Below the pieces are notes generated by a model. It was not told the DNA's origin and made no database searches. It was given only the letters and a program-made list of their open reading frames with translations. A stretch of DNA of 64,000 bases, from assembly GCF_019797745.1 (NCBI RefSeq), contig NZ_VOSI01000004.1, positions 62,001 to 126,000 of the forward strand, given 5' to 3'. The position numbers and the translations under genes are program-made. How positions within the stretch are numbered: position 1 is the first letter of the stretch; each line of letters starts with the position of its first letter. Shown here in pieces: positions 14,047-25,738 of this stretch. The stretch comes from Edaphocola aurantiacus. Its GTDB lineage: Bacteria; Bacteroidota; Bacteroidia; Chitinophagales; Chitinophagaceae.

Positions 14047-14994
14047 TTAAAGTCCTAATTTTTCGTCAATATAATAATGATTACGCTCCGGCGCGTTACG
14101 AACAATGAGTTCGGCAAGGTAACCAGAGAGGAAGAACATCGTTCCCATCAGTATGAGCGTCAATGAGATATAGAAAGGCGGTCTGTTGACAATACCATAA
14201 GCATCCCACCAGATCAGCTTACAGATAACCATGTAAGACACAAAAATAAAGCCGATAAAAAACAGGAAGGCTCCCAGCAGTCCGAAGAAGTGCATAGGTC
14301 TTTTGGCAAATTGCCCGATGAACTGTACGGTGAGCAGATCCAGGAAGCCATTGACAAAGCGGTTCCAGCCAAACTTGGACACCCCATATTTACGGGCCTG
14401 GTGCTGTACCACTTTCTCGCCGATCTTTTTAAATCCGGCATTCTTAGCCAGAACAGGGATATAGCGGTGCATTTCACCATATATCTCCACACTCTTGACT
14501 ACTTTATAATTATACGCTTTCAGTCCGCAGTTAAAGTCATGCAGTTTGATGCCTGACATGCGGCTGGTTACACCATTGAAGAATTTAGAAGGCAGGTTTT
14601 TGGTAATTCTATTATCAAAACGCTTCTTTTTCCAGCCACTCACCAGATTGAATTTTTCTTCACGGATCATGTGCATCAATTCCGGGATCTCATCAGGGCT
14701 ATCCTGAAGGTCAGCATCCATAGTGATCACAACATATCCGTTAGTCGCTTTAAAGCCTTCATTCAGTGCGGCACTCTTGCCATAGTTACGCTGGAATTTA
14801 ATGCCTTTGATATTCGGATTGGCGCTGCGTAATTTTTGTATTACATCCCAGCTGTCATCTGTACTGCCATCATCCACGAAAATGATTTCATAGCTGTACT
14901 GATGTGCCTGTGCGACACGATCTATCCACGCAGCCAGTTCCGGCAGCGATTCTTCTTCGTTCAATAAAGGTATTACTACAGATAAATCTAACAC
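14047..14994 (-). CDS. Membrane glycosyltransferase family 2, polyprenyl-phosphate type
   Basis: A 315-aa GT-A glycosyltransferase of the DPM1/GtrB group that loads a sugar from a nucleotide donor onto polyprenyl phosphate at the cytosolic face. The N-terminal catalytic domain shows VVIPLLNEEESLPEL, FVDDGSTDDSW, FQRNYGKSAALNEGF and the metal-binding MDADLQDSPDEI. The C-terminus has two membrane helices (FGLLGAFLFFIGFIFVSYMV and FYISLTLILMGTMFFLSGYL). It follows a DUF4199 gene with a 13-base gap and probably shares its transcript. The donor sugar cannot be told from sequence. Confidence 0.9.
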   Translation of the reverse strand: MLDLSVVIPLLNEEESLPELAAWIDRVAQAHQYSYEIIFVDDGSTDDSWDVIQKLRSANPNIKGIKFQRNYGKSAALNEGFKATNGYVVITMDADLQDSPDEIPELMHMIREEKFNLVSGWKKKRFDNRITKNLPSKFFNGVTSRMSGIKLHDFNCGLKAYNYKVVKSVEIYGEMHRYIPVLAKNAGFKKIGEKVVQHQARKYGVSKFGWNRFVNGFLDLLTVQFIGQFAKRPMHFFGLLGAFLFFIGFIFVSYMVICKLIWWDAYGIVNRPPFYISLTLILMGTMFFLSGYLAELIVRNAPERNHYYIDEKLGL

Positions 14995-15007
14995 TTGTTT
15001 GTCGGGT

Positions 15008-15568
15008 TTAAAGTTCTTGTTTGGACATATGCATATCCATCAGTTGCTGCGGTGTTTTTTTACGCAGCAGGAAGGCAATCATCAGTCCGAAAATACTATC
15101 TACCACTACCCAGCGGGCCAGCAGGTTCTTGGCTAATCCCCAGAAATCCTTACTGGATTTGGCCTGTCCCCTCACCATTTCTATCTGCTCCTTGATTTTT
15201 TCCGCACTCATTTTATTCTTATGCGCAAAAGCATCCATTGACTGCTCGTAGGTCTGGAAGAATGTAGGGTTGAAATAATTCAGGTAAAAATAAGTAAATA
15301 AAAGATATGCCACCTCTGCAAAGATGATCGCGATAAATATAGGCTGGAACAGATCTTTAATCTCTGCATATCCACCTAAACTACTGCGCTTTTGCGTACC
15401 GGTGATCACCAATGCAGCGATAATAATAAAGTAAGAAATAAAGCTACCCAGGTAAAATGCAAAAGGATTATAGCTTAGAAAGCTAAATTTGATCCACAGC
15501 ATCAGCACATACAATGCTGCAATAATCAGTCCGGCTTTGATACCGAAGGCAATATTTTTTTTCTTCAT
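15008..15568 (-). CDS. DUF4199-type membrane protein
   Basis: A 186-aa protein with four predicted membrane helices: ALYVLMLWIKFSFL, FISYFIIIAALVITG, AIIFAEVAYLLFTYFYL and WVVVDSIFGLMIAFLL. The GGYAEIKDLFQPIF stretch and overall layout match the Bacteroidota-specific DUF4199 family, whose function is unknown. It has a 6-base gap from the dihydroorotase-like gene and a 13-base gap to the glycosyltransferase, so the three probably form one operon. In many Bacteroidota DUF4199 sits just before a DPM1-like glycosyltransferase, as here. Confidence 0.8.
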   Translation of the reverse strand: MKKKNIAFGIKAGLIIAALYVLMLWIKFSFLSYNPFAFYLGSFISYFIIIAALVITGTQKRSSLGGYAEIKDLFQPIFIAIIFAEVAYLLFTYFYLNYFNPTFFQTYEQSMDAFAHKNKMSAEKIKEQIEMVRGQAKSSKDFWGLAKNLLARWVVVDSIFGLMIAFLLRKKTPQQLMDMHMSKQEL

Positions 15569-15574
15569 AATAAA

Positions 15575-16810
15575 CTAGAGAATTTGGGCTTTTCCGGTAA
15601 GTGTTTCGTTCAGCAATGGCGTGTTAAAGGCAAGGCTGGCTTTGTTTTCCGGTGTCAGCATCCATTCCGTATCATAGTCAAACAGGGTGAAGTCCGCAAT
15701 GGAACCTTCTGTAACAGAAGCCGTTTCCAGTCCGAATATGGTTGCGATGTTCTGAGATAGCAGGGCAGCCCAGCGTTCTGCAGTAACATGCGGAGCCGCT
15801 TTACGCAGCATAGGCCAGCAGCTCTCCAGTGTAGCCATACCGGATTGGGTGTATTCGAATTCTTTAACTTTCGAATCCCAGTCCTGCGGCTTATGGTGTG
15901 TTGCAATAGCATCAATAGTACCATCTTCCAGCGCCTTGATCAGCGCTTTGCGGTCTTTTTCGCTTCTCAGCGGGGGATTTACTTTGTATAAGCTGTTGTA
16001 GGTCGACAGGCTGTCGTCTGTAAACAGCAGGTGATATGGCGTTACCGAACAGGTTACGGCTACACCATCTTTTTTAGCTTTTTTGATCAGGTTCAGGCTT
16101 TCGGCGGTACTTACACCGGAGAGGTGCAGTTTAGAACCTGTATAGCGGGCCAGTTCAATGTCGCGGTTTACCAGTAAAGTCTCTGCGATAACCGGTATGC
16201 CCGGCATACCCAGTTGTACAGAATTAGGTCCTTCATTCATCAGTCCGTCCGATAGCTCGGCCATAACCGGAATCTGTACCACTGTACCATTAAATGCTTT
16301 CACATACTCCAGTGCTTTCTGCATCAGTCCTGCATGCTGCAAAGGCTTCCAGCCGTCGGTAAAGGCAATAGCCCCTCCATGATACATTTCCAGCATTTCG
16401 GCCAGATTTTTACCTTCCAGCTGCTGCGATACAGCACCCATTACTTTCAACTGTACACGATGCCCTTTGGCGCTCTGCTGTACAAAGCTCACAGAACTTT
16501 TTGTAGCCAGTGCCGGATTGGTATTCGGAACAACGATAACTTGTGTAAAACCACCTTGTGCAGCGGCATTAAGGCCGCTTTCAATCGTTTCTTTATGCTC
16601 ATATCCCGGTTCGGCAAAATCAGTCATTAAGCTGATCCATCCCGGGGCTATAAATCTGCCCTTTCCTTCGATGGTCTGTTTGGCCGTTACTTTAAGCGAT
16701 TTTCCAATCTGGGTAACCTGGCCCTTTTCAATGAGTATATCTACAGTTTTGCCGTTGTGCGCAGAGGTCACATCGGCAACCTGAATGTTTTTGATAAGAA
16801 CGGATGACAT
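15575..16810 (-). CDS. Dihydroorotase-like amidohydrolase lacking metal ligands
   Basis: An amidohydrolase-fold protein of 411 aa related to PyrC (third step of pyrimidine synthesis). The fold is clear: VLIKNIQVADV, GRFIAPGWISL, TDFAEPGYEHKET, GVSTAESLNLI, CSVTPYHLLF, NPPLRSEKDR and FGLETASVTEGSIADFTLFD. The metal-binding HxH normally preceding REPG is replaced by MTD, and the catalytic Asp of the usual ATDHAP motif is His (ATHHKP). It may be a non-catalytic DHOase-like subunit or a divergent enzyme; automated annotation will call it dihydroorotase. A start at 16819 would overlap the promoter box, so ATG 16810 is chosen, which makes the mRNA nearly leaderless. Confidence 0.82.
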   Translation of the reverse strand: MSSVLIKNIQVADVTSAHNGKTVDILIEKGQVTQIGKSLKVTAKQTIEGKGRFIAPGWISLMTDFAEPGYEHKETIESGLNAAAQGGFTQVIVVPNTNPALATKSSVSFVQQSAKGHRVQLKVMGAVSQQLEGKNLAEMLEMYHGGAIAFTDGWKPLQHAGLMQKALEYVKAFNGTVVQIPVMAELSDGLMNEGPNSVQLGMPGIPVIAETLLVNRDIELARYTGSKLHLSGVSTAESLNLIKKAKKDGVAVTCSVTPYHLLFTDDSLSTYNSLYKVNPPLRSEKDRKALIKALEDGTIDAIATHHKPQDWDSKVKEFEYTQSGMATLESCWPMLRKAAPHVTAERWAALLSQNIATIFGLETASVTEGSIADFTLFDYDTEWMLTPENKASLAFNTPLLNETLTGKAQIL

Positions 16811-16816
16811 AATGCG

Positions 16817-16824
16817 CAAAGATA
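16817..16824 (-). promoter_or_regulatory. -7 promoter box for the dihydroorotase-like operon
   Basis: TATCTTTG on the minus strand. Only six bases separate its last G from the ATG at 16810, so transcription should start at or next to the start codon. Confidence 0.6.
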
Positions 16825-20000: not shown

Positions 20001-20034
20001 TTGAAGCAAACATTATGAAATTGTTGTATTTTTG
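20001..20034 (+). promoter_or_regulatory. Promoter of the 3-hydroxyacyl-CoA dehydrogenase gene
   Basis: TTG at 20001-20003 and an exact -7 box TATTTTTG at 20027-20034, 23 bases apart. The box lies inside the longest open frame, which proves that the ATG at 20015 is not the start. Confidence 0.65.
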
Positions 20035-20056
20035 TATGTTCTCAAAAAAATTAATA

Positions 20057-21022
20057 ATGTCAGAAACAGCAATTAAGGATATGGCAGAAGCAACCACAGT
20101 TATCAGCAATATTCAGCAAATTAAAACAGTATCTGTAATCGGTGCAGGTACTATGGGAAATGGTATCGTGCATGTATTTGCCCAAAACGGGTATAAAGTA
20201 CAAATGATCGATATCGCTCAGCCGGCCCTGGATAAGGCCCTGGCTAATATCGGTAAAAATATGGACCGCCAGATCACTAAAGGCAGTATTACCGAAGAGC
20301 AGAAAAATGCCGCCCTGGCAAACATCACTACCCATATCGATATGGAAGGCGGCCTGAGCGGCGCTGACCTGGTAGTGGAAGCAGCTACAGAAAATGTAGA
20401 CCTGAAACTGAAAATCTTTAAAGACATCGATCGTTTAGCTCCGGCTCATGCGATCCTGGCTACCAATACTTCTTCTATCTCTATTACCCGCATCGCTGCT
20501 GTAACGTCAAGACCAGCACAGGTTGTAGGTATGCACTTCATGAACCCGGTTCCGGTAATGAAGCTGGTAGAAATCATCAATGGTTATGCGACTACAAAAG
20601 AAGTTACACAAGTAATTTACGATCTGTCTGTACACATTGGTAAAGTACCTTGCGTAGTAAATGACTATCCTGGTTTTATCGCTAACCGCATCCTGATGCC
20701 AATGATCAATGAAGCGATCATCAGCCTGCAGGAAGGTGTAGCTGGTGTAGAAGAGATCGATACGATTATGAAATTAGGTATGGCTCATCCGATGGGACCA
20801 CTGCAACTGGCAGACTTTATCGGTCTGGATACCTGCCTGTCTATCCTGAACGTACTGCATAACGGTTTCGGTAATCCTAAATATGCTCCTGCTGCTTTAC
20901 TGACCAATATGGTACAGGCGGGCCGTCTGGGTGCTAAATCCGGAGAAGGTTTCTACAAATACACTTCAGGTAGCAAAGAACTGGTGGTAAGCGATAGCTT
21001 TGCCGGTAATCAATGGAAGTAA
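20057..21022 (+). CDS. 3-hydroxyacyl-CoA (3-hydroxybutyryl-CoA) dehydrogenase
   Basis: A 321-aa soluble enzyme oxidising 3-hydroxyacyl-CoA to 3-ketoacyl-CoA with NAD. The Rossmann motif is VIGAGTMGNGIVHVFAQNG. The catalytic region contains ATNTSSISITRIA and GMHFMNPVPVMKLVEII, with the active-site His in HFMNP, and the C-terminal dimerisation domain contains NDYPGFIANRILMPMINEA and GMAHPMGPLQLADFIGLD. It is the short, single-domain type, as in butyrate and PHB metabolism, with about 28 extra N-terminal residues. The start at 20057 is set by the promoter box upstream. A second ATG at 20081 is possible. Its codon bias suggests high expression. Confidence 0.93.
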   Translation: MSETAIKDMAEATTVISNIQQIKTVSVIGAGTMGNGIVHVFAQNGYKVQMIDIAQPALDKALANIGKNMDRQITKGSITEEQKNAALANITTHIDMEGGLSGADLVVEAATENVDLKLKIFKDIDRLAPAHAILATNTSSISITRIAAVTSRPAQVVGMHFMNPVPVMKLVEIINGYATTKEVTQVIYDLSVHIGKVPCVVNDYPGFIANRILMPMINEAIISLQEGVAGVEEIDTIMKLGMAHPMGPLQLADFIGLDTCLSILNVLHNGFGNPKYAPAALLTNMVQAGRLGAKSGEGFYKYTSGSKELVVSDSFAGNQWK

Positions 21023-21055: not shown

Positions 21056-21101
21056 CATAAAAAGGAACGGGCCGATATATATCGGCCCGTTCCTTTTTAT
21101 G
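21056..21101. terminator. 46-nt perfect palindrome, bidirectional terminator
   Basis: A perfect palindrome with centre GATATATATC and arms CATAAAAAGGAACGGGCC / GGCCCGTTCCTTTTTATG. It lies between convergent genes ending at 21022 and 21135, with a T5 run in each direction, so it should stop both transcripts. Confidence 0.9.
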
Positions 21102-21134: not shown

Positions 21135-21659
21135 TTAGTCTAAAGTCTTTATCCAGGATGCCAGGCTATCATATTGCTCATCGATCCATTCATTAGGCAG
21201 TTCCTGTGCCGGCTGGGTAGTATGCAGGAATACCGTTTTCATACCCATGCTTCTGCCAAATTTCATATCACTGTAATTATTGCCGATCATAACCGATCGG
21301 GCAAAATCTATATCTTTAAAATCTTCCTGGGCCTTCAATGCCATACCTGTATTTGGTTTGCGCATCAGGTCATCACTATGCAATGCCGGAGCATGATAAA
21401 AGCAGTCGATGTGGCCCTGGTGTGGCGTTAATGCCTCTTGTATACTTTGGTGAATCTCTTCCAGGTCCTGGCTTGTCATCAAGCCTTTGCCGATACCCCT
21501 CTGGTTGGTCACCACCAGCACCAGGTCAAAGTATTTGCGGGCACGGGCAATCGCTTCCAGCGCGCCTTCATAAAAATGTAATTCTGAAGGATTGAAAATA
21601 TAACTTCCTTCTTTTTCAATGTTGATCACCCCATCGCGATCCAGGAATAATGCTCTCAT
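21135..21659 (-). CDS. gmhB: HAD phosphatase, GmhB-like (heptose bisphosphate phosphatase)
   Basis: A 174-aa histidinol-phosphatase-type HAD protein. Motif I is FLDRDGVINIE with the nucleophile Asp, motif II is VVTNQRGIGKG, then RKPNTGMALKA with the motif III Lys, and IGNNYSDMKFGRSMGMKTVFL with the acidic motif IV. These match GmhB, which removes the C7 phosphate from D-glycero-D-manno-heptose 1,7-bisphosphate. The zinc loop of standard GmhB (CxH followed by CxC) is reduced to CFYHAP with no CxC, so it is a zinc-less variant. It is the last gene of the seven-gene operon, three bases after the nucleotidyltransferase, and the gmhA neighbour supports a heptose role. Confidence 0.85.
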   Translation of the reverse strand: MRALFLDRDGVINIEKEGSYIFNPSELHFYEGALEAIARARKYFDLVLVVTNQRGIGKGLMTSQDLEEIHQSIQEALTPHQGHIDCFYHAPALHSDDLMRKPNTGMALKAQEDFKDIDFARSVMIGNNYSDMKFGRSMGMKTVFLHTTQPAQELPNEWIDEQYDSLASWIKTLD

Positions 21660-21662
21660 GTT

Positions 21663-22355
21663 TTACTGTCCGATCTCTTTTTGCGCCCGTAAGTAATCTT
21701 CCTCCACGCCTATGTCTATAAAATATCCTTCATTAATATATCCCTTCAGGCTATGCTTATCTGCTTCCGGTTCAAAGAATTCTTTTTCCAGGGAGAAGCG
21801 GTCCTGCATATCCTTAAGTAGGGTAGTGGTATGGTTCAGCAGGTAAATGCCACCGTTGATGAGGCCCTTGTCGCAGGCCTGCTTTTCGCGGAAGCCGGTA
21901 ATGTATTGGTCTTCGTCCAGGATAACCGTACCATAACGCTCAAATTGTTGCATCGGCTTTAAGGCAATCACTGCTTTGACCTCGTCGTTGAGTCCTTCGC
22001 TCATTTCCCTCAGGGGGATGTCGAACAACGTATCACCATTGAGTACAAAACACTGATCAGAATGGCATTTCAGCAAAGCCCTTTTCAATCCGCCGCCCGT
22101 GCCCAGGGGTTCTTTCTCAATCACCCAACTGATCTTGAACGTAAAGGCTTTGGTTTTGAGCCATTCCAGTACCATCTCATATTTATAACCCAGAGATAAG
22201 ATCACATGATCGCAATATTGCTGCTCCAGGTAGTGAAACAGGTGTGCGAGGAAAGGCTGACCATTGACTGGTGCCAGGCATTTAGGTACATCCGGTACGA
22301 TGTGTTGTAAACGGGTGCCCAGGCCGCCCGCCAGTACGATACATTCCATACTCAT
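21663..22355 (-). CDS. Heptose-1-phosphate nucleotidyltransferase (HddC-like)
   Basis: A 230-aa sugar-nucleotide pyrophosphorylase with the GT-A-like fold. The start CIVLAGGLGTRLQHIVPDVPK carries the nucleotide loop and catalytic Lys of LAGGxGTRL...PK enzymes. GTGGGLKRAL, NGDTLFDIP and the C-terminal GYFIDIGVEEDYLRAQ complete the family pattern. Between gmhA-like and gmhB-like genes it most likely makes GDP-D-glycero-alpha-D-manno-heptose (HddC role); a different NDP-sugar cannot be excluded. The gaps to its neighbours are 6 and 3 bases. No sugar kinase (HddA) is encoded in the operon, although the GDP route needs one. Confidence 0.85.
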   Translation of the reverse strand: MSMECIVLAGGLGTRLQHIVPDVPKCLAPVNGQPFLAHLFHYLEQQYCDHVILSLGYKYEMVLEWLKTKAFTFKISWVIEKEPLGTGGGLKRALLKCHSDQCFVLNGDTLFDIPLREMSEGLNDEVKAVIALKPMQQFERYGTVILDEDQYITGFREKQACDKGLINGGIYLLNHTTTLLKDMQDRFSLEKEFFEPEADKHSLKGYINEGYFIDIGVEEDYLRAQKEIGQ

Positions 22356-22361
22356 ATCTTT

Positions 22362-22940
22362 TTAGCCTTTGAATAATGCTGCTTCAACCAACTGACAGGC
22401 GATATGCCCCAGGGTAATATGGCACTCCTGGATACGTGGCGTATCATCAGAAGGAATATTGATCAGTATATCAGAGAGGTCTTTCATCGCCCCGCCGGTA
22501 CTGCCGGTAAAGGCCACTGTAATGATGCCCATTTCCCGTGCCTGTTCAAATGCTTTTACTATATTGGTAGAATTACCGGAAGTGCTCAGTCCTATAAGGA
22601 CATCGCCCTTCTTGCCGGAGCCTTTCAGTAAGCGGCTGTATACCATATCATACCCGTAATCATTGGCTACAGCTGTCAGGTAAGAAGTATTGCAGTGCAG
22701 TGCTTCGCTGGGCAGGGGATCGCGGTCTGTGTAGAAACGACCGGAAAACTCTGCTGCCAGGTGCTGTGCGTCTGCTGCCGAGCCGCCATTGCCGCAGAAC
22801 AGGACTTTACCTCCATTACGGAAGGTTTCTGTGATCTGTTCTGTCAATGATTGTACACGGGCAATCAGTTCCTGGTCTTCCAGGATTTGTTGCTTTACGT
22901 CTATAGAACGTTGAAGTATTGCTTGAATTGAAGAGGTCAT
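22362..22940 (-). CDS. gmhA: Sedoheptulose-7-phosphate isomerase (SIS domain)
   Basis: A 192-aa cytosolic enzyme turning sedoheptulose 7-phosphate into D-glycero-D-manno-heptose 7-phosphate, the first step of nucleotide-heptose synthesis. The SIS core shows FCGNGGSAADAQHLAAEFSGRF, with the His and Glu of the metal site in HLAAEF, and GLSTSGNSTNIVKAF. The second metal and active-site segment is IQECHITLGHIACQLVE. The length is typical of GmhA. Its ATG overlaps the ketosynthase stop by four bases (ATGA-type overlap), so translation is coupled to the upstream acyl-chain genes. Confidence 0.93.
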   Translation of the reverse strand: MTSSIQAILQRSIDVKQQILEDQELIARVQSLTEQITETFRNGGKVLFCGNGGSAADAQHLAAEFSGRFYTDRDPLPSEALHCNTSYLTAVANDYGYDMVYSRLLKGSGKKGDVLIGLSTSGNSTNIVKAFEQAREMGIITVAFTGSTGGAMKDLSDILINIPSDDTPRIQECHITLGHIACQLVEAALFKG

Positions 22941-24064
22941 TGTTTTACTTTTTTAGACCATACCAGTGCCGCATTACAGCCACCGAATCCGGCAGCAGTT
23001 TTTGCAAAATGCGCGACAGGCTGATGGCCGATCGAGGTAATAACGTGTAAAGGTACGCTGGTATTGCTTTCCTGGAAGCCCGGTACCGGAATCAGGGTAT
23101 CCTGTTCCATAGCTTTAAGGCTGATGATACTTTCCAGCAGGCCCGAGGCACCCAGTGTATGCCCGAAATAAGGTTTAAGGCTGTGTACCGGTACTGCCGA
23201 CAGAGCAGCATGACCAATAGCCTTAGCTTCCATTTCATCATTATAATTAGTTGCCGTTCCGTGTGCAGAAATGAAACCGATATTCTGTGGTTCAAGCTGT
23301 GCTTCAGCAAGGCTCTGGCTGATGGCCATGCCCAGTTCTGCTCCCGTTTTGGACGGGCCGGAGAGGTGGTTGGCATCATTGCTGATGCTGCCGCCGCTGA
23401 GTACCGCAGTGTGGCTGCTATATTGTATATCAGTACTCAATACAATACAGGCCGCAGCTTCACCCAGGTTCAATCCTTTTCTTTCCGCATCGAAGGGACG
23501 GCACTGCTCATCTGAAAGTGCCTGGAAAGAATTGAAGCCGGCAAGCACGAAATCGCTGATTACATCACAACCTGCTACAACAGCATGTTTGTACAGACCA
23601 GCCTCCAGCATACGTCTGGCGGTGATCTGGGCAGCTGCCCCGGAGATACAGGCTACCGATACATTAATAACCGGGTTGGGGTGTTTGAAATAAGCAGCAA
23701 TGCGTTGAGCCGCAGCGGGAATAGATGCCAGTGCTTTGCGCTCCGGATCATTGATCCATTCTATATTTCCTTTGGTCGTAGATAAGATCAGTACGGTATC
23801 AGGATCTGTCAGGCTGATGGCTGTTGCAGATAAGGCCTGTTGTATCGCCGCAATACACATCTGCTCAAAACGGCTGTAACCGTTTAGTGCTGCTGTGTTG
23901 AGTGCATCATATTGTGCCTCCTGCATTTTGCCCAGCATAAAAGTATTGCCGTCGGGAAAAGACACCGGACGAATGGCGCTTGTGCCATTTAGTACCGCCT
24001 CGTATACCGAGTCGGTATCAAAGCCCAGGGGGCTGATTATAGCGTCGGAAACATGGTAAATCAT
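22937..24064 (-). CDS. Beta-ketoacyl-ACP synthase (FabF-like, specialised)
   Basis: A 375-aa ketosynthase that condenses an ACP-bound extender with an acyl chain. The catalytic triad is complete: Cys139 in NVSVACISGAAAQ, His268 in ISAHGTATNYNDEMEA and His302 in LKPYFGHTLGASG. It is shorter than housekeeping FabF (about 410 aa), as are the accessory ketosynthases of aryl-polyene, flexirubin and related clusters. The C-terminus AAGFGGCNAALVWSK is normal. It lies two bases after the dehydratase-like gene and overlaps gmhA. The acyl product is unknown. Confidence 0.88.
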   Translation of the reverse strand: MIYHVSDAIISPLGFDTDSVYEAVLNGTSAIRPVSFPDGNTFMLGKMQEAQYDALNTAALNGYSRFEQMCIAAIQQALSATAISLTDPDTVLILSTTKGNIEWINDPERKALASIPAAAQRIAAYFKHPNPVINVSVACISGAAAQITARRMLEAGLYKHAVVAGCDVISDFVLAGFNSFQALSDEQCRPFDAERKGLNLGEAAACIVLSTDIQYSSHTAVLSGGSISNDANHLSGPSKTGAELGMAISQSLAEAQLEPQNIGFISAHGTATNYNDEMEAKAIGHAALSAVPVHSLKPYFGHTLGASGLLESIISLKAMEQDTLIPVPGFQESNTSVPLHVITSIGHQPVAHFAKTAAGFGGCNAALVWSKKVKQ

Positions 24065-24066
24065 AT

Positions 24067-24471
24067 TTACTTGTTTTCCTCCTGTAAAAATATTTTGTAT
24101 TCTGCGCGGGCAATCAGTTTATCTCCCGAATGAATGATCCCGTTAACGATAAAGGCATTCATCACCTGCTGTACATTGGTTGTAGTCGTGGTGATCTGCT
24201 CACCCACTTTAGGCAATGCATGTATCTCCAGTTGTTTTACCTGCCCTATAAAACCCACAGGCGGAGCCGCATGATGCTGTGCCGCCATATATCCCGTACC
24301 CGCAGCAGCGGTCTGGGCCATGTTTTCAATAAGGCCGGGTTCCGTAAAATATCCTTCCGATACAAACAGATGCTCTTCAGGTATGCGAAAAGTAGTAGTA
24401 GTCTGCTGCTCATTTGCTTCTGTGATCTCGTCGATCATGACAAAAGGAGCAGCCTGAGGTATATATTGCAC
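24067..24471 (-). CDS. Hotdog-fold dehydratase-like protein (FabZ/ApeP-like)
   Basis: A 134-aa single hotdog domain. PQAAPFVMIDEI at the N-terminus and GLIENMAQTAAAGTGY with the central hotdog helix match 3-hydroxyacyl-ACP dehydratases, including those of aryl-polyene clusters. The conserved Glu is present in GLIENMAQ, but the HFPG stretch carrying the FabZ catalytic His is replaced by EGYFTEPG, so ordinary dehydratase chemistry is doubtful. It may be a thioesterase-like, non-catalytic or altered enzyme. It sits between the acyltransferase (42-base gap) and the ketosynthase (2-base gap). Confidence 0.72.
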   Translation of the reverse strand: MQYIPQAAPFVMIDEITEANEQQTTTTFRIPEEHLFVSEGYFTEPGLIENMAQTAAAGTGYMAAQHHAAPPVGFIGQVKQLEIHALPKVGEQITTTTTNVQQVMNAFIVNGIIHSGDKLIARAEYKIFLQEENK

Positions 24472-24513
24472 AATCGTTTGCTGTTGATACTTAAGGCGTG
24501 AAGTTACGATAAT

Positions 24514-25401
24514 TTACGCTTTCTGCTCTTCCCAAAAATCGAAGTAGTTAAACCACTGATCCGGGTATTGCTGTACTTTTTCTTCCAGCGCAGCCACATA
24601 ATCTTCCAGCATACGCTCGGCGCCCAGCATGCCACGTCCTTCGTAGACCTGTGGTACCGTTGCCGTAAAATGATAATGCAGATCGGCCAGTTTCAGCGTA
24701 AATACGATACTTACCGGTGCGCGCAGCTTGCTTGCGAGAATGAACGGACCTAATGGGAAAAGGGCTTCCTTGCCCAGGAAATCATGCTTAATTGTACGTG
24801 TGCCAGGCACATAACGATCGGCATGGAGGCATATCAGCTCATTACGGCTAAGGGCCGCTGACATCTCATATATATGCGACATGTCATCTTTGATGAAAAT
24901 AATATTGAAGGTTTTCTTATCCGCAACCTTATCCAGGTATTGTTTGATCTGGGTGTCTTCGCCATCGTACATTACGATATTGATCACCGTTTCCAGTCGC
25001 TCCAGCAGCTGACCGGCCAGTTCATAATTGCCCAGGTGCGCACTCACGATAATGCCGCCTTTACCGGCATCAACCATATCATTCAGGTTACGCTCTCCTT
25101 CCCGTGTAATGGTAAACGGATTTTTGCGCGTACTGAACAGATATATTTTATCGAGAATAGTCTGCCCAAAACGGATAATGTTTTTACGGATCAATTTACG
25201 GGCAGCATGGGAGTCCATGCCCAGGCGTTCCTGGTACAGGTATTTTAGGGGACGGGTAGCAGCCGGTACAAAGAAAATGTAATACCAGCCTACTATATAC
25301 AGTAACGCATAGGCTGGTTTGAGACCACCTATGCGTAACAGGAAGATAAATATTTTATATCCTAATGCGGATCCTTGAGATTTTCCACTCCACTGAGCCA
25401 T
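24514..25401 (-). CDS. LpxL/HtrB-like lysophospholipid acyltransferase
   Basis: A 295-aa membrane-anchored acyltransferase. The catalytic HX4E motif is at His122-Glu127 (VSAHLGNYELAG), followed by a substrate region (LHADRYVPGTRTIKHDFLGK and APVSIVFTLK) typical of the lipid A secondary acyltransferase family. An N-terminal hydrophobic helix (YALLYIVGWYYIFFV) anchors it to the inner membrane. In flexirubin and aryl-polyene clusters, such enzymes attach the ACP-borne chain to a lipid or headgroup. Here it follows an ACP gene by 22 bases, so it probably transfers the chain made by this operon. Classical lipid A acylation is the alternative. Confidence 0.85.
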   Translation of the reverse strand: MAQWSGKSQGSALGYKIFIFLLRIGGLKPAYALLYIVGWYYIFFVPAATRPLKYLYQERLGMDSHAARKLIRKNIIRFGQTILDKIYLFSTRKNPFTITREGERNLNDMVDAGKGGIIVSAHLGNYELAGQLLERLETVINIVMYDGEDTQIKQYLDKVADKKTFNIIFIKDDMSHIYEMSAALSRNELICLHADRYVPGTRTIKHDFLGKEALFPLGPFILASKLRAPVSIVFTLKLADLHYHFTATVPQVYEGRGMLGAERMLEDYVAALEEKVQQYPDQWFNYFDFWEEQKA

Positions 25402-25423
25402 AATAAGGGCAATAGTTCTGGTA

Positions 25424-25672
25424 CTAAGCGGCTACCAGACGCTTTTCAACATAATTGTAAAAATCTTCGATTGTCTCCATGGTCTGGAAATCTTCCGGTT
25501 TTACTTTAAATCCGAAATTATTTTCAATCACAACAATTAAGTCAATATAATCAAGGCTATCCAGGTCCAGGGTCTCTTTCAGCTTAGACTCCGGCTGAAT
25601 ATCTTCTGCCTCAACTTCAAAATCTTCAACCAAAAAGTGGTTGATTTTGGCAATCATTTCTGCTTTTTCCAT
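25424..25672 (-). CDS. Acyl carrier protein
   Basis: An 82-aa acidic helical ACP. The phosphopantetheine Ser39 lies in TLDLDSLDYIDLIVVIE, the usual DSL motif. It is the first gene of the operon and probably a dedicated carrier distinct from the housekeeping fatty-acid ACP. The open frame extends 16 codons upstream to 25720, but those residues (Ser, Gly and Pro rich) do not fit an ACP; ATG 25672 is chosen. An exact -7 box at 25731-25738 on the minus strand would drive the operon. Confidence 0.92.
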   Translation of the reverse strand: MEKAEMIAKINHFLVEDFEVEAEDIQPESKLKETLDLDSLDYIDLIVVIENNFGFKVKPEDFQTMETIEDFYNYVEKRLVAA

Positions 25673-25730
25673 TACTTTATTAGGGATTTTTGGGTTCGGG
25701 GAACCTCCTGAGAGGCTCAAAAATCGGTCG

Positions 25731-25738
25731 CAAAACTA
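25731..25738 (-). promoter_or_regulatory. -7 promoter box of the ACP-heptose operon
   Basis: TAGTTTTG on the minus strand, 58 bases before the ACP start. It is the only exact box seen ahead of the seven genes, whose gaps are all 42 bases or less. Confidence 0.55.

Follow-up and report, generated by a model that had tools for sequence, protein, structure and literature searches.

The described systems closest to the locus considered here are the flexirubin cluster (flx) of Chitinophaga pinensis and Flavobacterium johnsoniae (PMC3992019), the aryl polyene cluster (ape) of E. coli CFT073 and the GDP-D-glycero-D-manno-heptose pathway. In PMC8253772, the molecule that anchors the E. coli aryl polyene is called still unknown, it is proposed that it could be a glycolipid, and the structure of the aryl-polyene lipid of X. 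doucetiae is cited as solved. BVU_1014, an LpxL/LpxM homologue of an aryl-polyene cluster, is thought to use a substrate other than lipopolysaccharide, according to PMC5850320. The present locus lies in a 64,000-nt stretch of DNA from Edaphocola aurantiacus (the window; assembly GCF_019797745.1, contig NZ_VOSI01000004.1, positions 62,001-126,000), which belongs to a 3.69-Mb genome (G000, contig 4). On its minus strand, from 25672 down to 21135, the window holds the genes for an acyl carrier protein (ACP), an LpxL-like acyltransferase, a FabZ-like hotdog protein and a beta-ketoacyl synthase (KS), followed by gmhA, hddC and gmhB (Table 1). This set is read here, with confidence that stands about even, as a genus-specific operon of two envelope modules that would co-produce two envelope precursors, and it provides a compact case of acyl-chain supply tied to heptose supply.

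Layout and conservation within the genus

An earlier note on this DNA had described seven genes of these families on one strand, with gaps of 42 bases or less, a four-base overlap between KS and gmhA, an exact -7 box before the set and a 46-nt palindrome at its end, and all of this is borne out. Along the direction of transcription the intergenic distances are 22, 42, 2, -4, 6 and 3 bases, and the gmhA ATG shares four bases with the KS stop codon (ATGA). The -7 consensus of Bacteroidota-type promoters is TAnnTTTG. Exact copies are common in the window (64, both strands counted); one lies upstream of the ACP gene in four of the five genus genomes (this one, E. flava, G117 and G119, which make up two close pairs), and upstream of ACP in G118 no exact copy is present. 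For the ACP, the ATG at 25672 (82 aa) is the probable start rather than the in-frame TTG at 25720 (98 aa); the distance from the ATG to the DSLD motif is identical in E. flava, G117 and G119. The terminal palindrome is a real hairpin, and the 95-nt stretch around it folds at -41.7 kcal/mol (z -9.1). Because it is placed between convergent genes, it is probably bidirectional, serving both the operon and the gene at 20015-21022. By eye, hairpins of different sequence follow gmhB in G118 and G117, and none is visible after gmhB in G119.

Table 1. Features of the seven-gene unit, in the order of transcription (window coordinates)
Feature	Position	Strand	Remarks
-7 box, TAGTTTTG	25731..25738	-	Bacteroidota-type promoter TAnnTTTG; 66 nt upstream of ACP ATG
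ACP	25424..25672	-	82 aa from ATG; DSL serine present; PF00550 6.8e-10; NF003757 74.3 bits (cut-off 65)
LpxL-like acyltransferase	24514..25401	-	PF03279 3.2e-14; HX4E motif; type of the flexirubin-type and mini cassettes
FabZ-like hotdog protein	24067..24471	-	GTG start; NF000582 28.8 bits (cut-off 113)
KS	22937..24064	-	PF00109/PF02801; Cys139/His268/His302 intact
gmhA, sedoheptulose-7-phosphate isomerase	22362..22940	-	TIGR00441 201.2 bits (cut-off 209.45)
hddC, D-glycero-D-manno-heptose-1-phosphate guanylyltransferase	21663..22355	-	NF049965 233 bits (cut-off 300)
gmhB-like HAD phosphatase	21135..21659	-	DxD motif; NF006506 110.7 bits (cut-off 178)
Hairpin terminator after gmhB	21056..21101	-	46 nt; 21-bp stem

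The genus sample (Edaphocola, or Edaphocola together with whatever the genome set places in one genus with it) consists of five genomes, represented by the window and by loci L003, L087, L088 and L089. The KS is present in all five, and the order of the seven genes is identical in all five, so that the single operon-like unit linking an acyl set to nucleotide-heptose genes, as first noticed in the window, is conserved throughout. In E. flava (L003, genome G031) the neighbourhood is near-identical, with HddC 96% identical and the flanks syntenic on either side; protein identity to the window is 65-91% in G118 and 57-85% in G117. With starts picked by script, the KS-gmhA junctions measure -4, -4, -1, +9 and +8, and all other gaps are 88 nt or less. 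Nonsynonymous divergence (dN) ranges from 0 to 0.018 against a synonymous divergence (dS) of 0.046-0.27 in the closest pair, and from 0.03 to 0.17 against 0.46-2.1 in the G117/G119 pair. In these two pairs, the ones with measurable dS, dN is far below dS for all seven genes, which are under purifying selection. Since the order is kept in all five genomes and dN is far below dS, the seven-gene arrangement is more than chance, and the agreement of five genomes rules out a recent artefact or an assembly join. Synteny with G118 covers the genes from recQ to a glycosyltransferase and does not continue upstream of recQ. Over the 20 kb read in G117 and in G119, the only orthologous block in common with the window consists of recQ and the seven genes, and the outer genes differ on both sides.

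Distribution outside the genus

The family survey covered 394 genomes, of which 124 have the KS at E <= 1e-60; HddC is found at E <= 1e-38 in 99 of these (65 of 80 plus 34 of 44). KS and HddC share a contig in 19 of the 99 genomes and lie within 2 kb of each other in five, which are the genus members. In the 14 other same-contig genomes they are at least 21.8 kb apart; the nearest separations, 21.8 kb (G065) and 26.3 kb (G062), are about as expected by chance (a rough estimate gives one among 94). The KS neighbourhoods of 60 of the 80 different-contig genomes (5 and 55, from separate retrievals) contain no gmhA, hddC, gmhB or HddA. The class survey comprised 395 genomes, 68 of them with an LpxL at E <= 1e-25. 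Two genus members and G029, covered as L206, are left aside; the 65 remaining LpxL loci, all from other families, likewise show none of these four genes at a 60-bit threshold, some of the stretches being short contigs. Recurrent linkage elsewhere, looked for in these two sets, is therefore set aside. In g2, the sister genus, both halves occur but at different loci, and no such operon appears in the titles and abstract starts of the open-access papers found by searching, papers naming Edaphocola included. The earlier note had held that homologous genomes with the two halves always separate would tell against the link. They are separate outside the genus wherever read and always joined within it, and the pairing is genus-specific among the relatives examined.

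The presence of one half does not predict that of the other: in a 117-genome sample of the family, HddC occurs in 30 of the 36 genomes with the KS and in 60 of the 81 without it (Fisher p = 0.35). An ancestral rearrangement in the genus could have put two unrelated modules under one promoter, where they then persisted, as the single lineage, the separate loci of g2, the lack of any recurrence in the 65 other-family loci and the missing co-occurrence signal would lead one to expect; but order and short junctions survive where the proteins of G118 and G117 are 57-91% identical to those of the window, and the genes outside the recQ-operon block differ on both sides in G117 and G119, so that such a fortuitous join is improbable.

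The acyl and heptose modules

The best solved-chain matches of the KS, 7f28_B and 6qsp_A, are modest (123 and 122 bits). According to PMC8358021 the two entries represent ApeO-ApeC from A. baumannii and from X. doucetiae, and the matched chains are read as ApeO because they retain the Cys. The hotdog protein matches FabZ and 6qsr in a profile search, and its AlphaFold model (pLDDT, the predicted local distance difference test score, 89.7) finds FabZ and ApeI:P (6qsr) with Foldseek. In FabZ the catalytic His sits in a GHFPG-type loop. According to the profile alignment this loop is missing from the hotdog protein; Glu49 of the central helix is conserved throughout both alignments (14 of 14 and 103 of 103 sequences), and nearby position 34 is Asn in 75 and His in 21 of 103. 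The earlier assignment of the set to the aryl-polyene/flexirubin kind holds as far as relatedness goes, but the label 'dehydratase' is not secure for a hotdog protein without the His motif. The LpxL-like enzyme belongs to the LpxL fold family (PF03279) and has an HX4E motif, read from the translation by eye. It scores under the curated LpxL cut-offs, its nearest solved chains are phosphatidylinositol mannoside acyltransferases, weakly matched, and it clusters with cassette-type enzymes in a tree without canonical LpxL.

Family scans of the operon genes reveal no glycosyltransferase or exporter, and the operon also lacks an ammonia-lyase, a CoA/ACP ligase and a dedicated reductase; no genome-wide search was made for these last three or for exporters. 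At E <= 1e-15 the genome contains one LpxL of the operon type. Its KS-like places number four at E <= 1e-20, and the one that ranks after the operon KS is on another contig. A canonical flexirubin cluster split in two was considered and rejected: there is one LpxL of the type, and the KS at G000:C1:334541 sits among chorismate synthase, UbiA and Maf, so that no flexirubin remainder is seen there (starter enzymes and exporters were not searched genome-wide). In the segment L067:8475-13276 (equivalent to G000:C1:330474-335275), this second flexirubin-related KS, its Cys-His-His intact, comes directly after the genes for BrkB, chorismate synthase, UbiA and Maf. The first gene past gmhB in G117 and G119, on the opposite strand, encodes another KS-like protein (L088:12925-14217 and L089:12907-14148), about 26% identical to the operon KS.

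The relatives of the acyl half were surveyed at 65 family loci (64 genomes). Sixteen have ACP, LpxL, hotdog protein and KS without other KS genes and are termed 'mini' (genera g2, g21, g42, g50 and g94), 23 have extra KS genes and are taken as 'flexirubin-type', not all having been checked gene by gene, and 26 are incomplete and were dropped. An aromatic amino acid lyase stands beside the cluster in L085; L084 has an O-methyltransferase and halogenase-like genes, and L076 an O-methyltransferase. In the LpxL tree (43 rows), a 100/100 branch splits the 23 flexirubin-type rows from the mini and genus rows, and the genus forms one group (100/98) that adjoins four g2 mini rows (100/95). The acyl cassette, which annotation would group with the flexirubin-type clusters, is thereby set apart from them. 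Of the 16 mini loci, 12 have a thioesterase, which none of the four scanned genus loci has. A secreted-looking protein of about 210 aa is encoded between the hotdog and KS genes at 13 of the 16 mini loci and at many loci of flexirubin type, and was not found at the same four genus loci; it has no Pfam or NCBIfam match (L073:11654-12265 and homologues). Since they lack both of these genes, the genus loci look like a reduced mini cassette, downstream of which the heptose genes would have been gained. The mini cassette is described here, and we know of no name for it.

In the heptose half, the nearest solved chains of HddC are 6jq8 and 5xhw, each entitled 'Putative 6-deoxy-D-mannoheptose pathway protein', and HddC is predicted from its nearest relatives to act on GTP and heptose-1-phosphate. 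The gmhB-like protein has GmhB as its nearest solved chains; the paired zinc-loop cysteines of E. coli GmhB are absent from all seven aligned sequences. The genome has one HddA-like GHMP kinase, on another contig and adjoining an ABC ATPase gene (NF049969 393.1 bits, cut-off 600). At the level of family matches the GDP-heptose set of GmhA, HddA, GmhB and HddC is present in the genome, and the route is predicted to be complete and to serve the whole cell. In a genome-wide search gmhA and hddC are the sole clear copies: gmhA is the only SIS_2 place over the cut-off, a second one below it lying inside a 616-aa frame, and the next-best HddC match is at 1.3e-12. As single copies they must supply all heptose needs of the cell, and with HddA unlinked as well, the 'dedicated precursors' of the earlier note do not stand.

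Among 19 HddC loci surveyed in the family (L003-L021, E. flava being L003), acyl genes are present at E. flava only. HddA, gmhA, hddC and gmhB stand in a row as separate genes at 12 of the 18 others; in the rest at least one of the four is missing, hddC and gmhB occupy a single frame, or the contig edge is reached. The single frames are L018:1987-3333 and L020:9935-11236, and many other HddC frames of the family, at 413-480 aa, are long enough for an HddC-GmhB fusion. In L079, L081, L083, L004 and L011, HddA adjoins hddC with no gmhA or gmhB match on the stretch, and a group-1 glycosyltransferase comes next after the pair in L081 and L083. Twelve of the 19 loci, E. flava among them, carry a homologue of the family-2 glycosyltransferase at window 14047-14994, and a group-1/family-4 glycosyltransferase lies between it and HddA where scanned (L005, L077); a homologue of the group-1 enzyme occurs in one of the five genus genomes. 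The window enzyme, about 6 kb past gmhB, is nearest to the undecaprenyl-phosphate sugar transferase family, under its cut-off. Window 14047-16819, about 4-7 kb past gmhB, encodes an amidohydrolase, a DUF4199 protein and this ArnC-like family-2 glycosyltransferase, and homologues of these genes lie ahead of the heptose genes in L005-L010 and L012 (DUF4199 unmatched in L010).

For the operon of two envelope modules we infer the following course. A single transcript would supply acyl chain and GDP-heptose together. The acyl module, a reduced form of an ACP-LpxL-hotdog-(secreted, about 210 aa)-(thioesterase)-KS cassette, would hold the chain on the ACP, with the KS extending it and the hotdog protein assisting, and the LpxL-like enzyme would move it to an envelope lipid. 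GmhA would make heptose-7-phosphate, the unlinked HddA phosphorylate it, GmhB take off the 7-phosphate and HddC add GMP, giving GDP-D-glycero-D-manno-heptose for an envelope glycan. That the heptose genes of relatives adjoin HddA and glycosyltransferases counts in favour of this reading. Several points weigh against it. The downstream neighbours are also conserved in G118, so that part of the stability is general synteny, and five genomes of a single lineage probably record one event of joining. The missing linkage and co-occurrence elsewhere tell against the halves being linked metabolically in an obligatory way. HddA lies outside the operon; hddC, gmhB and HddA score below the curated NCBIfam equivalog cut-offs, as does gmhA by a narrow margin, so that the specificity for sugar and nucleotide is judged from nearest relatives; and an rfaE-domain-I-like kinase elsewhere in the genome (315.7 bits, cut-off 345) makes ADP-heptose use possible as well. 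Without the FabZ His motif, the dehydratase label of the hotdog protein is insecure.

The two halves may instead join in one product, an acylated glycolipid of the outer membrane that contains heptose, in analogy to the one that might carry aryl polyenes. The heptose-acyl link proposed in the earlier note is thus a reasonable idea, and it is possible. The order fixed across the genus and the tight junctions, kept while the outer neighbours change in G117 and G119, suit it, as do the non-lipopolysaccharide substrate considered for BVU_1014 and the possible glycolipid anchor in E. coli. Against these stand the 94 genomes of the family outside the genus that have both halves (in 14 of them the halves share a contig but are at least 21.8 kb apart, and 60 were read without adjacency), the unassociated presence of the halves, an operon without glycosyltransferase or exporter, and a gmhA and hddC that are the only clear copies in the cell; a single product is accordingly given less than even weight, as a tentative reading. 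A shared product, if true, would open a genetic route to the molecules that are acylated by the acyltransferases of polyene-type clusters. A more specific form is rather unlikely: an undescribed outer-membrane glycolipid of Edaphocola in which the cassette-type LpxL would place a non-aryl, KS-extended chain on a heptose-containing head, the operon fusing both supplies, and the mini cassettes of at least five other genera making a form without heptose.

Comparison with known systems

The family loci taken as flexirubin-type share with the operon the succession ACP, LpxL, hotdog and KS, all four being homologous (the comparison did not extend to the published flx genes), but the operon has a single KS where two or more would be expected of a flexirubin or aryl polyene cluster, it lacks the reductase, methyltransferase, thioesterase, secreted 210-aa protein and exporter, and the genus LpxL falls outside the flexirubin-type group. 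The aryl polyene cluster is approached by the KS, nearest to the ApeO-ApeC entries, and by the hotdog fold, similar to ApeI:P; a starter ligase, a second KS or chain-length factor, a reductase and transport genes are absent from the operon. The aryl-polyene lipid of X. doucetiae, which is reported to carry glucosamine and a C7 sugar, would be a precedent for a lipid with sugar among the products of this gene family. The hotdog protein shares the central-helix Glu with FabZ dehydratase but not the catalytic His loop. The mini cassette has its LpxL on the same side of the 100/100 branch as the genus LpxL, and differs in having no heptose gene on the stretches read. Three of the four genes of the GDP-D-glycero-D-manno-heptose pathway are in the operon and an HddA-like gene is elsewhere in the genome; what distinguishes the operon from this pathway is the unlinked HddA and an acyl module immediately upstream of gmhA.

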